NCBI GenBank assembly: GCA_022614805.1
Contig: JAKEHY010000038.1
Coordinates: forward strand, 248,001-312,000
Reading direction: 5' to 3'
Source: Candidatus Zixiibacteriota bacterium
Lineage (GTDB): Bacteria; Zixibacteria; MSB-5A5; DSPP01
Length of the DNA: 64,000 nucleotides
Positions within the stretch are counted from its first letter, which is position 1; every line of letters begins with the position of its first letter. Position numbers and translations under genes: made by a program. Below the pieces are notes generated by a model that saw only the letters and a list, made by a program, of their open reading frames with translations, did not search any database and was not told the origin of the DNA. Shown in pieces: positions 23,898 through 39,428 of the stretch.

Positions 23898-24178
23898 AAT
23901 ACCCGGGGAACTTTAAAGAAGTTATCCTTGCGGTCGGGGGCGTTGGCCAGTGCCTCCTCCACCGACAGGGAGGGTTCGACCACATCTTCCCGCCAGGCGG
24001 GTGGCAAGGGAACCACCGTCTCGTATTCGGTTATGCCGGAGGTGTCCACTTTTTGAATCTGGCCGACGTATTCGAGTACGGAGGAAAGCTCCCTGGCAAA
24101 ACGGGCCTTCTCCTCTTCCGACAAGGCCAGCCGTGCCAGTTTGGCATAGCGTTCCACATCGGAAGGTTGAAAAGTCAT
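23894..24178 (-). CDS. gatC: Asp/Glu-tRNA amidotransferase subunit C
   Basis: 94 residues with the GatC pattern DVERYAKLARLALSEEEK and the C-terminal FFKVPRVL. GatC stabilises the GatAB complex that amidates Glu-tRNA(Gln) or Asp-tRNA(Asn); gatA and gatB are not in the window. A consensus promoter ends 6 nt before the ATG and no SD exists, so the mRNA is probably leaderless. A diverged copy of the gatC 5' part lies at 25346-25455. Confidence 0.92.
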
Positions 24179-24184
24179 AGGGAT

Positions 24185-24212
24185 ATGATAGAGGAAAATG
24201 AATCGATGTCAA
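24185..24212 (-). promoter_or_regulatory. Promoter of gatC, probably leaderless
   Basis: Minus strand TTGACA (24212-24207), 16 bp, TATCAT (24190-24185). Only 6 nt separate the -10 box from the ATG at 24178, so transcription should begin at or next to the A of the start codon. Confidence 0.7.
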
Positions 24213-24264
24213 GGATGACCTTTCCAACAACCAAAAGTCGCCTGGCTGCCACAAGTTACGCATG

Positions 24265-24514
24265 TATTGTTGCCAGACATGGGTAACAAATGAAAAAACG
24301 CCCCTGGCATCTACAGAGCGTGACCGGTGGTAACCCAACCGGGTCCCAGCTTGATCCAAACCGACTAGACAAGTTTTTACATGCGAGACAGATATCCAAA
24401 ACCGCTTAGCCCCCCGGCCTCCGCCGGGGGGATTCGTTTCCCAGGGGCAGAGGCCCCTGGGCTAACCTTTGGGTGGGCGCAAAAAAAGTGTTACCCATGT
24501 CTGGGTACTGTACA
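24265..24514. mobile_element. MITE of about 250 bp with 26-bp terminal inverted repeats and 15-bp target duplication
   Basis: The left end (24265-24290) starts TGTATTGTTG and continues CCAGACATGGGTAACA. The right end (24489-24514, reverse complement) starts TGTACAGTAC and continues with the same 16 bases. GCCACAAGTTACGCA directly abuts both ends (24250-24264 and 24515-24529), a perfect 15-bp duplication. The inside has no gene, but holds two perfect 9-bp GC hairpins with 4-nt loops (24410-24431, 24440-24461). The ends and the long duplication recall IS481-family elements; that assignment is from memory and uncertain. It fills most of the gene-free stretch 24213-24654. Confidence 0.8.
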
Positions 24515-24654
24515 GCCACAAGTTACGCATCCCTTGCTTTTCCATCGGCGGCAGATTAAATTAGGTGCACGTTCGGCATAGCCCGAAGTTTTGGGCGGAG
24601 GGATGACCGCCGCCCGGCTTTGCAAACGTTGACGCCCGGCAAGGGCAATACAAG

Positions 24655-25344
24655 ATGAAAAGCGCGACAAACAACCCCGCTATCGGCATAGAAAGGGAAG
24701 AGGCCAAACCCGTGACCGTGACCAAAAAACGCAGGAACCTGCAAGGGTATTTGGACGAAGTTCCAGACCGCATTTATCTCGGTCTCGTCCGCATCCACGA
24801 GCTTTCCCGGGACGGCCTCATCGAAAACCGAAAGGCGACCGCCGCCATTCAGGAAGCGCTGGGCCTGGAGGCCTATCCGCCGCAGGCGGTCAGACGGCTT
24901 ACCGGCATTTTCTCCCATCGGGGCTATCTGGAAAAAGTGATAAAGGGAGGAATGTTGAAGGGGTACCGCATAACCGATTTGGGAAAGCAGGTTATCGCGC
25001 GGGAAATTCAGCCGGGCAGCGAAAAGGCCCGGCCGGGCAGAAGGCTGGTTTTTCGGCTTCCCAAGCTCTCGGAGGAGGATTTCCGGACCCTGATGGAAAG
25101 AGCCAAAGCGTTCGAAGAGGCCAGCCGGAAGCTGAAACAGAACGAGAAGGACCTGGCGGCCCTCAAGAAAAAAAAGGAAAAGCTAACCGCCCGCCGGGAC
25201 CGCTTCACCGAGCAAATTAACGAGCTGGTTTCCCAGCAGGCCGGCATTTTGGAAGAGAATCAGGGGCTACGAAAGCTTGTTTCCCAGTCGACTTTGGCCG
25301 CCGAGAAATTACGAGAGATACGGGACATTATCCAGCGGGGCTGA
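24655..25344 (+). CDS. Unrecognised protein: winged-helix-like N-half, coiled-coil C-half
   Basis: 229 residues. Residues 28-120 look like a winged helix (IYLGLVRIHELSRDGLI, then MLKGYRITDLGKQVIARE). Residues about 135-225 form a long heptad-patterned coiled coil (LKQNEKDLAALKKKKEKL). A DNA-binding protein that dimerises through the coil is plausible. No known family was identified. The SD is poor; ATG 24655 was taken because it begins the open frame. It lies in an accessory patch between the MITE and a gatC fragment, which suggests acquisition by transfer. Confidence 0.55.
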   Translation: MKSATNNPAIGIEREEAKPVTVTKKRRNLQGYLDEVPDRIYLGLVRIHELSRDGLIENRKATAAIQEALGLEAYPPQAVRRLTGIFSHRGYLEKVIKGGMLKGYRITDLGKQVIAREIQPGSEKARPGRRLVFRLPKLSEEDFRTLMERAKAFEEASRKLKQNEKDLAALKKKKEKLTARRDRFTEQINELVSQQAGILEENQGLRKLVSQSTLAAEKLREIRDIIQRG

Positions 25345-25345
25345 C

Positions 25346-25455
25346 CCGCTCCCACCACTTACCCAATCGGGTTTTTTCCTCTTTTGTCAAAGCCAAGCGG
25401 GCCAGTTTGGCGTAACGGCCCACGTCGGAAGGTTTAGAAATTATGACCGGGTGAT
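25346..25455 (-). pseudogene. Diverged fragment of gatC (5' part)
   Basis: The minus strand encodes KPSDVGRYAKLARLALTKEE, matching the N-terminus of the intact GatC (QPSDVERYAKLARLALSEEE), and DNA similarity continues slightly upstream of the start. After about 35 codons the similarity ends and the frame stops at 25328. The several synonymous and conservative differences show an old duplication, not a recent one. The fragment lies 1.2 kb upstream of intact gatC in the same orientation, with the MITE and the gene at 24655 between them. Confidence 0.7.
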
Positions 25456-36381: not shown

Positions 36382-38475
36382 CTACGGATCGCAAGGGGGG
36401 GATTGATCCAAAAATGTTGCGTTTACGGTTAAAACGATGTCGGCCCCCGTATAGGCCCCGTTACAATCCAGGTCCGCCACTTCGGGGGGAGTCAGAGGGT
36501 CCCCAAGGAAGATAAAGCCGAGCAGTATCACGATGTCGGCGGCGGTCAATTGGTTGTCCATGTTGGTGTCCCCCAGTTTAAGCAAGGTAAAGCGGAAAAC
36601 CTCGTTGCTCGGAGTGGGAGCCCCTTGCATATCGAAAGCCGTGACCTTCCAGTAGTACTGTCGGCCACGGACCGTAAGCGCCCCGGTTGGAACCGTGAAG
36701 GAACTGGTGATAAGTCCGCCGACCGTTACGGCGGAATCGAAGTTGGCAAGGGGAGCGACGGAAACTTCGTAGGTTACGGCGTCAAACGGATCGGGGTCGG
36801 TGGCATCGGCCCAGTCTAGGGTAGGCATTCTGGTTACCGTAAAGCCGTTGTCGGGTGGGGATAAAAGCGAGAACGGAGGGAGCGGCTCGTTGACGGCATT
36901 TATGTAGAAATCCTGCAGGGGTGAAAAAGCGGAACGGGCTCCCTTGGCGTCCACCGTTCGCACGGCCCAGAACCAGTGGCCGTTTTCGGCCAGGCTGTCC
37001 GGCGCGACCAGCGTGGTTTCCCCAGGCGGGGTGAGGTAGCGGAATTCGAAATCGTCGGTGATTTCTCCGTCCCTGTCCAGCCGCAGTTCATAGCGCAGGC
37101 TTGACGGAGGGTCGTCGGGGTCGGAGGATTGGAACCAGGAAAAAAGGGGCCGATGTTCTGTCAATACAATCCCGCCCGATGGTGAAAAGCCGCCGGGTAC
37201 CGGCCGCGGCGAACTGTCCGCCAGGTTCAAATAAAACTGGCGGAGTCCGCTCGTATAAGCGGATGTCCCGCCGTGGTTATCTACGGCCCGCACCCGCCAA
37301 AAATAGGAAGAATCGTCCTTCAGGTTGTCGTGATCGGCCAGAGCGCTTAGCTGGACGGCCAAGGCATTCGGAAACGCTCGAAGGGCAGGGGCGGTTACCC
37401 CTTCTTGGGACACCGTGTTTTCGTCAATTCCGCTCTGGTTCACTTCCGGGCTGGAGAAATCAAAGTTGTCGTCTATTTGCAACTGGTAGGTGAGCTGGTC
37501 GCCCGGATCCGGGTCGGTGCTCTCCAGCCAGATCAGATAGTCAAACATACTCAAATCCGAGCCGCTGGGAGGGGATATGTCCACCGGCGGGGTGGGTGTG
37601 GCATCCAGACGAAAGGTTCTCGTCTCCAAGGAAAAAGAAGTGTCGTCATCCGCGGTAACGGCGCGAACCTTCCAGTAATACGTAGCCCCTACCTGTAAAT
37701 CTGCCGGCACCTGCCAGGTGGTGTCAGGCAGGGGGGGGGAGGTATCGGTTGGGCTGAAGGAAGGGTTGTCGGCCAGAAAGACCATGTACGTAGCGGGGAT
37801 GGTAGCGGTGTCCCGCAGAGAATACCAGAGAAAGGTGGGTCTCTGCTCCGGAATCACCGCCCCGTCCGGGGGAGCAATCAGGTCCAGTTGAAAGGGAACG
37901 CCGACCTGGATGACGCTTGCGACAAAGTTGACCGGCACGTCGATGGCGCCCGTCTTGGTGAAGTACGGAATTTGCCCCGACACCCGACCGGAATCGAATC
38001 CAACCGTCCCCACCGGGTCCACTTTGGTCACGGTGTCAAACTTTATGTCCCAGACCCCCTTACGGGTCGGGTTGGGAGGTTCGTTGGTGCTCGGGTCCAC
38101 CCCGTCGCCCCCGGCCGCCAAAAGAAATGTGTCCGGGCTGACGCTGTTGTATCTGAAGCTGACGCCGGTAAAATAGCGGAGCGTGTTGTCGGTCAAAAGC
38201 GCCACCACGCCGGTGAAGGAGCGGGGGCGGGACAGGGTCATATAAGCACCGCCCGAAAGGGACCTTTCTATGAGCGGCAGAACCATATAGGCAAGGGAGT
38301 CTTTGTTGGTAATGGAAACCCGCATCCGCACCACCCCGCTGCCACTGGCACCGGCAATGGGTGCCACGATTTTGGACTCCAAAATCATGGAGTCGCGCTC
38401 ATCCGGTGTTTGGGCTGAAAGCGAACCGATTGGCAGAAAGAGAACCCCCAGCAGCAAAAGTCCCGTTTTACGCAT
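36382..38475 (-). CDS. Large secreted multi-domain protein with dockerin-like C-terminus
   Basis: 697 residues. A signal peptide (MRKTGLLLLGVLFLPIGSLS) precedes a beta-rich domain, then four or so repeats of fibronectin-III type with the wording RPTFLWYSLRD, YYWKVRAV, SSYFWRVRAVDNHG and RQYYWKVTAFD. The end holds two dockerin-like motifs (GDTNMDNQLTAADIVILL and LDCNGAYTGADIVLTV). Such proteins are extracellular scaffolds or adhesins; no enzymatic motif is seen. SD AAAAGGAGG lies before the ATG. A promoter candidate is at 38521-38546. Confidence 0.88.
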   Translation of the reverse strand: MRKTGLLLLGVLFLPIGSLSAQTPDERDSMILESKIVAPIAGASGSGVVRMRVSITNKDSLAYMVLPLIERSLSGGAYMTLSRPRSFTGVVALLTDNTLRYFTGVSFRYNSVSPDTFLLAAGGDGVDPSTNEPPNPTRKGVWDIKFDTVTKVDPVGTVGFDSGRVSGQIPYFTKTGAIDVPVNFVASVIQVGVPFQLDLIAPPDGAVIPEQRPTFLWYSLRDTATIPATYMVFLADNPSFSPTDTSPPLPDTTWQVPADLQVGATYYWKVRAVTADDDTSFSLETRTFRLDATPTPPVDISPPSGSDLSMFDYLIWLESTDPDPGDQLTYQLQIDDNFDFSSPEVNQSGIDENTVSQEGVTAPALRAFPNALAVQLSALADHDNLKDDSSYFWRVRAVDNHGGTSAYTSGLRQFYLNLADSSPRPVPGGFSPSGGIVLTEHRPLFSWFQSSDPDDPPSSLRYELRLDRDGEITDDFEFRYLTPPGETTLVAPDSLAENGHWFWAVRTVDAKGARSAFSPLQDFYINAVNEPLPPFSLLSPPDNGFTVTRMPTLDWADATDPDPFDAVTYEVSVAPLANFDSAVTVGGLITSSFTVPTGALTVRGRQYYWKVTAFDMQGAPTPSNEVFRFTLLKLGDTNMDNQLTAADIVILLGFIFLGDPLTPPEVADLDCNGAYTGADIVLTVNATFLDQSPPCDP

Positions 38476-38520
38476 AGCCGGCCTCCTTTTCTTAAGTTTA
38501 ACGTTCTTTGTCGCCGTAAG

Positions 38521-38546
38521 ATTATATTACTTTTCGTCTGTGTCAA
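38521..38546 (-). promoter_or_regulatory. Candidate promoter of the large secreted protein
   Basis: Minus strand TTGACA (38546-38541) and TATAAT (38526-38521) are both perfect but only 14 bp apart. TTTCTT three bases upstream of TTGACA gives an 18-bp spacing. One of the two pairings is probably used. Confidence 0.5.
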
Positions 38547-38624
38547 GAAAATAATTGCAATGTGACATTTATTGGGCGAACCAAACCCTCTTCAAGTCGG
38601 CTGGAAGGGTATGGAAGCTGGTTT

Positions 38625-39428
38625 TCAGCGCCAATTGAGCCACAAAAAGAAAAGGCCGGCCGCCCAGCAATAATAGGAGAATCCTTCCAACGAATGTTTG
38701 CGCAAGATTTTGAGCAGCAAATAGATAGCCAAAACGCCGCTTAAAAAAGACGCGGCTGCCGCGACGTAGAAAAGCCCCCAATCGTTATAAGGGTTTTCGC
38801 TTTTGACGAGTTTTGGCACTTCCAGGAGGGCCGCCCCGGCGATGGCGGGAATCGAAAGCAAAAAGGAGTAGTCGGCGGCTTTTTTGCGCTCCAGCCCCAT
38901 AAAAAGCCCGACTGTGATGGTTGAACCAGAACGGGAGATGCCGGGCAAAATCGCCACGGCCTGGGCCAGACCCACCGCCAGCGTGTTTTTGTAATTGAGC
39001 GGGGCTCCCGTGGGCCTGGAATATCGGGAAAGAAAAAGAAAAAACCCGGTTATAAGAAGGAAACTTGAAATCCAGATGGGTTTATCAAAAGCTTCCTCGA
39101 AAAATTTCTGAAATCCTCCTCCAATCGCCGCCGCCGGAATGGAACCCCAGAGGACGAAAAGTACCATTCGCCAATCTTCCTTCCGTTCCTCCGGCAGTTT
39201 GCCTGCCAGTTTCAGGAAAAACGCTTGGACAAAACGGAAAACTTCTTTTCGATAAAAAACAAGAACGGAAGCCAGCGTGCCGAGATGCAGAACCACGTCA
39301 AAAGCGACATTATCCAGCTTGGATTCAAAAACATGCTGGAAGAGGGCCAGATGGGCCGAGCTGGAAACCGGCAAAAACTCGGTCGCCCCCTGCAATACAG
39401 CCAGAAAGAAAATCTGCCAGGTTTCCAC
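38625..39428 (-). CDS. uppP: Undecaprenyl-diphosphatase
   Basis: 267 residues, eight helices. Family motifs are GATEFLPVSSSAHL near the N-terminus and PGISRSGSTITVGLFMGL in the middle, both catalytic. It recycles the undecaprenyl carrier for peptidoglycan and O-antigen synthesis. The GTG start at 39428 has no SD. A TTGACG-16-TAAACT promoter ends 7 nt before it, so the mRNA is likely leaderless. Confidence 0.95.
   Translation of the reverse strand: METWQIFFLAVLQGATEFLPVSSSAHLALFQHVFESKLDNVAFDVVLHLGTLASVLVFYRKEVFRFVQAFFLKLAGKLPEERKEDWRMVLFVLWGSIPAAAIGGGFQKFFEEAFDKPIWISSFLLITGFFLFLSRYSRPTGAPLNYKNTLAVGLAQAVAILPGISRSGSTITVGLFMGLERKKAADYSFLLSIPAIAGAALLEVPKLVKSENPYNDWGLFYVAAAASFLSGVLAIYLLLKILRKHSLEGFSYYCWAAGLFFLWLNWR

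Follow-up and report, generated by a model that had tools for sequence, protein, structure and literature searches.

How did a 252-bp element without a gene come to lie directly upstream of a predicted promoter, what moved it there, and by what is such a site chosen? We addressed these questions at a locus in a window of 64,000 nucleotides from Candidatus Zixiibacteriota bacterium; the window is the whole stretch of DNA that was analysed, and unprefixed positions refer to it. The genome of the window (G000) is a draft of 2.56 Mb in 38 contigs, and the window copy of the element lies on contig C1. For comparison, we used the draft genome of a sister species (G001), the only other member of the genus compared, and a phylum set of 132 genomes in which G000 and G001 are both included.

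A preliminary description, made from the letters of the window, had placed here a 250-bp MITE at 24250–24529, with 26-bp terminal inverted repeats (TIRs) and a perfect 15-bp target duplication. The element is real, and only its extent had to be corrected: the duplication opens at 24248, so that the proposed start was 2 bp late, and the non-coding MITE itself occupies 24263–24514, that is, 252 bp. Its ends, TGTATTGTTGCCAGACATGGGTAACA and TGTACAGTACCCAGACATGGGTAACA, are 26 bp long and pair at 22/26 positions (85% complementary), and the duplication matches at 15/15 bases; the match extends to a 16th base, which is the first T of the element itself. The features of the locus are as follows.

24185–24212, minus strand: gatC promoter-like site, TTGACA-16-TATCAT (11/12), on the opposite side of the MITE and not in the target geometry
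24248–24262, no strand: left target-site duplication, GCCACAAGTTACGCA, from the sequence
24263–24288, plus strand: left TIR, TGTATTGTTG followed by the shared core CCAGACATGGGTAACA, from the sequence
24289–24405, plus strand: left interior, non-coding, which differs between the two MITE subfamilies (C1/C25 versus C16+C30/C4+C29), from alignment
24406–24465, no strand: REPIN-like block, two inverted REP hairpins, TTAGCCCCCCGG..CCGGGGGG and CCCAGGGGC..GCCCCTGGGCTAA, from the dispersed palindrome family
24489–24514, minus strand: right TIR, TGTACAGTAC with the shared core, facing the predicted promoter and matching the G001 IS end that lies beside a transposase start
24515–24529, no strand: right target-site duplication, from the sequence
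24530–24562, plus strand: predicted host promoter, with a TCCC step, TTGCTT at 24534–24539, a 17-bp spacer and TAAATT at 24557–24562; a consensus match only (8/12), below the scan cut-off
24655–25344, plus strand: 229-aa ORF downstream of the predicted promoter, with no Pfam family above cut-off

Direct-repeat pairs are not rare in this DNA. With at least 14/15 matches and a distance of 150–400 bp, 11 were counted in the window, and the MITE pair alone also had an inverted repeat of at least 18/26. The same combination occurred 0 times in 20 shuffles. The two hairpins noticed beforehand in the non-coding interior lie at 24406–24432 and 24439–24465, and a single-strand DNA fold gave z = −6.4 relative to 200 shuffles.

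Rather than a single-copy segment conserved in distant relatives, a search of the genome revealed a second near-full copy, 96% identical, at C25:36410–36659, with a perfect 15-bp duplication of its own, TCGGCGGGTTGGATA. Further halves, which belong to a second subfamily, lie at four contig edges, the left ones at the end of C4 and the start of C16, and the right ones at the end of C29 and the start of C30. The left flank of C16 and the right flank of C30 are identical in 15/15 bases, those of C4 and C29 in 12/15. Judged from these flanks, the halves presumably represent two split copies, C16+C30 and C4+C29; joined by a 33-bp overlap, both come to 253 bp. In the alignment, the two subfamilies have their ends, right part and hairpins in common and differ in the left interior. 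We noticed that the otherwise near-identical halves on C29 and C30 (L004 and L003) carry the second hairpin loop in opposite orientations, which may reflect a flip at the palindrome or arise from the assembly. The strong hairpins could in principle suggest a structured intergenic RNA or attenuator that is not mobile. However, duplications that are perfect and differ from each other at three sites speak against this reading, as does Rfam, which returned no match in 24000–24700 up to E = 1, and we find it scarcely credible. Short, non-coding, bounded by TIRs, duplicating its target at independent insertions and sharing its ends with an IS of G001, the element is a MITE.

The hairpins themselves have a wider distribution. 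The pair at 24406–24465 is one member of a dispersed palindrome family, with 22 further REP loci in G000 outside the MITEs, some of them less than full pairs; a typical locus reads TTTAGCCCCCCGGC..GCCGGGGGG-spacer-CCCAGGGGC..GCCCCTGGGCTAAA. The feet of the hairpins are TTAG in the MITE and in most copies, and GTAG/CTAC in some (L008, L020). Four genes of the Y1_Tnp (RAYT) type were found in G000; one of them, on C27, has these repeats on both sides, and three do not. The C27 gene lies in the segment C27:4669–7944 (L087), at 1252–1818 on the minus strand, with REP/REPIN copies at 1224, 1859–1912 and 1994–2046. The hairpin block had no match in G001. Because the REPIN occupies one and the same position in 4/4 MITE copies, it was probably captured before these spread.

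We then turned to the source of mobility. The preliminary description had placed the transposase outside the window and thought of IS481. On the first point, the window contains no match to the IS481 model or to the N-terminus of the G001 transposase described below. On the second, the same end was found beside the start of an IS481-type transposase in G001, and a related end beside an rve_3 C-terminus. Contigs C74 and C75 of G001 both begin inside an IS whose end is 97% identical over 32 bp to the right end of the MITE, and from ~70 bp inside this end a transposase N-terminus reads inward. Its 79 aa matched NF033577 transpos_IS481 at 8.8e-14 versus 4.1e-6 for an IS3 model, as a fragment that stays under the 224-bit cut-off, and Pfam LZ_Tnp_IS481 was above its cut-off. 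G001 C19 begins with a 44-aa rve_3 C-terminus (26.8 bits, cut-off 26.5), followed by the related end TGTACTACTTCCCGACATAGGTAACGG. The middle of the IS, catalytic residues included, is absent from the assembly, and all fragments score below the 224-bit cut-off of the family. In Pfam, the two IS end pieces hit HTH_28/HTH_29, LZ_Tnp_IS481 and rve_3, and no Mutator transposase family. The TGT...ACA ends of the MITE and of the related ends are those of the IS481 family, and a 15-bp duplication fits the range of 2–15 bp, with a subgroup at ~15 bp, given for that family (range in PMC10045372). The G001 IS is the probable parent of the MITE.

No transposase related to the G001 N-terminus was found in G000 (0 matches), so we infer that the source was either lost from this genome or left unassembled. 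A weak match to the IS481 model on G000 C16 was dropped, being better described by IS1 (58.1 bits). The same contig holds, at C16:45916–48861 (L045), 1447–2268 on the minus strand, a 273-aa IS1-like DDE ORF near the contig end (NF033558, 58 bits, below cut-off). An rve protein on G001 C33 was likewise rejected, as a member of the IS3 family.

In the phylum, 4/132 genomes have an IS481 match at 1e-8 (G001, G046, G070 and G086); the IS481 relatives of the last three were set aside as kin of the MITE, their ends and sites being different. In G046 (L072) and G086 (L073), the two flanks of the IS481-type element look like mutual inverted repeats, as if insertion had occurred in the centre of a palindrome, and no direct duplication was found for these two; copies in G029 and G062 have similar left flanks. 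Searched with the G001 N-terminus, a collection of genome contigs yielded six relatives at 39–46%, with similar neighbours in Bacteroidota/Ignavibacteriae, and a collection of viral contigs yielded no match. These six (L075–L080; ORFs of 328–360 aa) were rejected as parents, since their neighbours are similar and no terminal repeats were found around them; they are possibly domesticated transposases. The ends themselves were searched in the same manner. The exact pattern TGTANNGTNNCCAGACATRGGTAA had 0 matches in each of the two collections. With two mismatches, the TIR pattern matched in 28/132 genomes of the phylum, and outside G000 and G001 in 26/130, versus 36/130 for the reversed control; these outside matches are mostly due to chance, with the exception of G103 and possibly G040, G029 and G062. 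Three contig-edge copies in G103, at the starts of C3, C72 and C79 (L128–L130), belong to a related but different IS481-type element, the end of which contains TGTTACCCATGTC twice, a repeat similar to the core of the MITE ends; they show the transposase-C-terminal end alone, and no promoter-side junction is present. Among the 132 genomes, no convincing further copy of the ends was found outside G000 and G001.

Within the two genomes, there were 12 TIR matches, which we classed manually as six right-type and six left-type ends. Besides the window copy, left-type ends are present on G000 C25, C4, C16 and C20 and on G001 C19. The C20 end is a lone left end (23/26 bases) for which no right end was found. 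A decayed copy on C26 is left-like in the outer 10 bp of its end and right-like in the inner part, with no TTGACA at the expected place. The C20 end and the C26 copy were left out of the six-site counts given below.

Does the sister species offer a site before and after insertion? The comparison with an insert-free relative that had been proposed for the window copy was run at uppP, not at that copy. G001 C19 runs into uppP (a 74.8% match to the window over 973 bp; the window ORF matches Pfam BacA at 1.2e-76), and G001 C74 runs into the counterpart of the window's next gene after uppP. The window counterpart is the following feature.

38476–38624, minus strand: intergenic region between uppP (38625–39428) and the next gene (36382–38475), with TTGACA at 38546–38541; insert-free counterpart of G001 C19/C74

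Because C19 continues into uppP and C74 into the next gene, the two contigs would bracket one IS, present in G001 and missing from the corresponding place in the window. The 15-mers that flank the insertion agree at 12/15 bases. At the window copy itself, G001 has no counterpart of 24190–25360, ~1.2 kb with the MITE and the 229-aa ORF. Incidentally, window 25364–25441 repeats the 5' end of gatC (79% to the start of G001 gatC), as if the 1.2-kb stretch had arrived with a partial gatC duplication. The genes downstream of the copies on C25, C30 and C29 had no DNA match in G001.

Where, then, do the right ends lie? Six are assembled, four of the MITE (G000 C1, C25, C29 and C30) and two of the IS (G001 C74 and C75). 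An open frame of 229–493 aa lies ahead of all six, in the same direction (the start codon at C30 being uncertain), and the orientation of the element is identical at 6/6 sites. Read outward from the right end, the order is 15 bp, 3–4 C-rich bp, a hexamer, 16–18 bp, a −10-like hexamer and the open frame. The hexamer is TTGACA in five cases, at +19 in four and at +18 in G001 C75, and the window copy has TTGCTT in its place. TTGACA occurs 24 times in the 128,000 base-strands of the window; the chance of finding it at two offsets in at least 5/6 sites is ~4e-17, or 7e-12 after allowing for 4096 hexamers and 40 offsets, for a motif noticed in the same six sites. Among the 4 bp that precede the hexamer, 19/24 bases are C at the targets, compared with 27% for the 24 TTGACA of the window. 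The −10 boxes score low, with 3–4 of 6 at best and a mean of 3.5, versus 2.6 at all 24 window TTGACA. This geometry and the REPIN nature of the hairpins are additions to the preliminary description.

We weighed a transposase of low target specificity, whose copies would survive in intergenic DNA ahead of genes by selection. All sites do lie ahead of open frames, as purifying selection predicts, but selection leaves the 18–19 bp spacing in 5/6, the orientation in 6/6 and the C-rich step unexplained. Moreover, the flanks of the 22 other REP loci of G000 lack such a pattern: an outward TTGACA within 60 bp was found in 1/44. We hold this account to be improbable. Very probably, the MITE is instead a non-autonomous IS481-type element whose right end is set, in one orientation, 18–19 bp upstream of TTGACA in a −35 region.

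The sequences downstream, predicted as sigma70-type promoters from their letters, are presumably active. Support for the prediction is strongest at thiC and at the gene beside uppP, where both species retain TTGACA. At G001 C75, the predicted promoter is followed by a TPP element (52.1 bits, E 1.2e-9; gathering score 54.3) and then by thiC (ThiC, 4.5e-190); G000's own thiC has TTGACA ahead of a like element and no insert. It appears that the element inserts closely upstream of predicted sigma70-type promoters, always in one orientation, and leaves them intact.

A mechanism can be proposed. The MITE would have kept two transposase-binding ends and a REPIN in the middle, and no gene, and an IS481-type transposase would act in trans by binding the inner core shared by the ends. 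Strand transfer would proceed with a 15-bp stagger, as the duplication suggests. The unequal outer 10 bp of the ends may set the orientation, by analogy with TnGBS-type elements. Target choice would depend on the −35 region of promoters of the sigma70 type, which would position the right end 18–19 bp upstream of TTGACA; the promoter and the 19 bp upstream of it would stay intact, and 15 bp would be copied behind the element. Because these 15 bp are duplicated, the promoter would keep its own upstream sequence to about −55, and insertion should therefore do little harm.

What recognises the target can be conceived in two ways within this explanation. We infer that it is the transposase which reads the motif. 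Recognition by the transposase alone, through the C-rich step and TTGACA and with the promoter location as a by-product, falls only slightly short of an even chance in our estimate: the C-rich step is atypical of window TTGACA sites, and the IS481 member ISLxc2 has a sequence-specific target, NCTAGN (PMC2516522), while the window copy, with TTGCTT and a fair −10 at 17 bp, suggests tolerance for promoter-like sequence instead. Alternatively, bound RNA polymerase or a sigma factor might guide the transposase. Insertion falls at about −41 to −55, which is DNA contacted by the alpha C-terminal domains of polymerase, and its orientation is fixed, as such guidance would have it; the C-rich step nonetheless argues for DNA reading, and we regard guidance as rather unlikely.

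If targeting of this kind is true, the rve (retroviral-integrase-like) transposases include one directed at bacterial promoters that it leaves unbroken, and a safe-site strategy extends beyond the one unrelated superfamily to which it has so far been tied. The element would offer a compact system in which to study −35 recognition by a DDE transposase, would connect the 15-bp stagger with the preservation of DNA upstream of promoters, and would turn new insertions into natural promoter tags in an uncultured lineage. We consider it likely that IS481-type IS and MITEs evolved orientation-locked, promoter-upstream targeting (C-rich step plus −35) independently, with the MITE as a vehicle for the REPIN. 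In the full-text literature searched, in which many subscription papers are not covered, we found no report that IS481 elements or their MITEs target promoters.

Parts of this system have known counterparts. Correia-type MITEs bring outward promoters. So does MITEAba12 (PMC6382973), and both resemble the present MITE as short non-coding TIR elements adjoining genes; the outward promoters are theirs, whereas the present MITE appears to leave a host promoter in place. Dimers of REP with GTAG feet (REPINs) and their RAYT genes share with our repeats the inverted REP hairpins and one bracketed Y1_Tnp gene, and the GTAG feet in some copies only, TTAG being the commoner foot here; moreover, here the REP pair sits inside an IS481-type MITE; REP dimers inside longer palindromes have been described in A. 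variabilis (PMC3733652). Among IS481 members, ISMac4, ISA0963-1 and the IS481EU of parabasalids have ~15-bp duplications (PMC10045372), and the likeness extends to the TGT...ACA ends and to the IS481-type transposase pieces beside the same end; the difference lies in the target, the word "promoter" occurring 0 times in the main text of that paper. The closest parallel in targeting comes from TnGBS/ISLre2 (p-MULT 3) and part of the ISKra4 group (p-MULT 4), which insert 15–17 bp upstream of the sigmaA −35; insertion by p-MULT 3 is oriented, and unequal ends set the orientation (PMC3942029). Promoter-upstream insertion by these elements is also pointed to in PMC10433421. A fixed distance upstream of the −35 and a single orientation are common to them and to our element (TTGACA in 5/6 and one orientation in 6/6 here). 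However, theirs is the Mutator superfamily and a distance of 15–17 bp, while here the pieces are of the IS481/rve type, the distance is 18–19 bp and the duplication 15 bp. The element described here targets like TnGBS/ISLre2/ISKra4 elements, but by its transposase it is not one of them.
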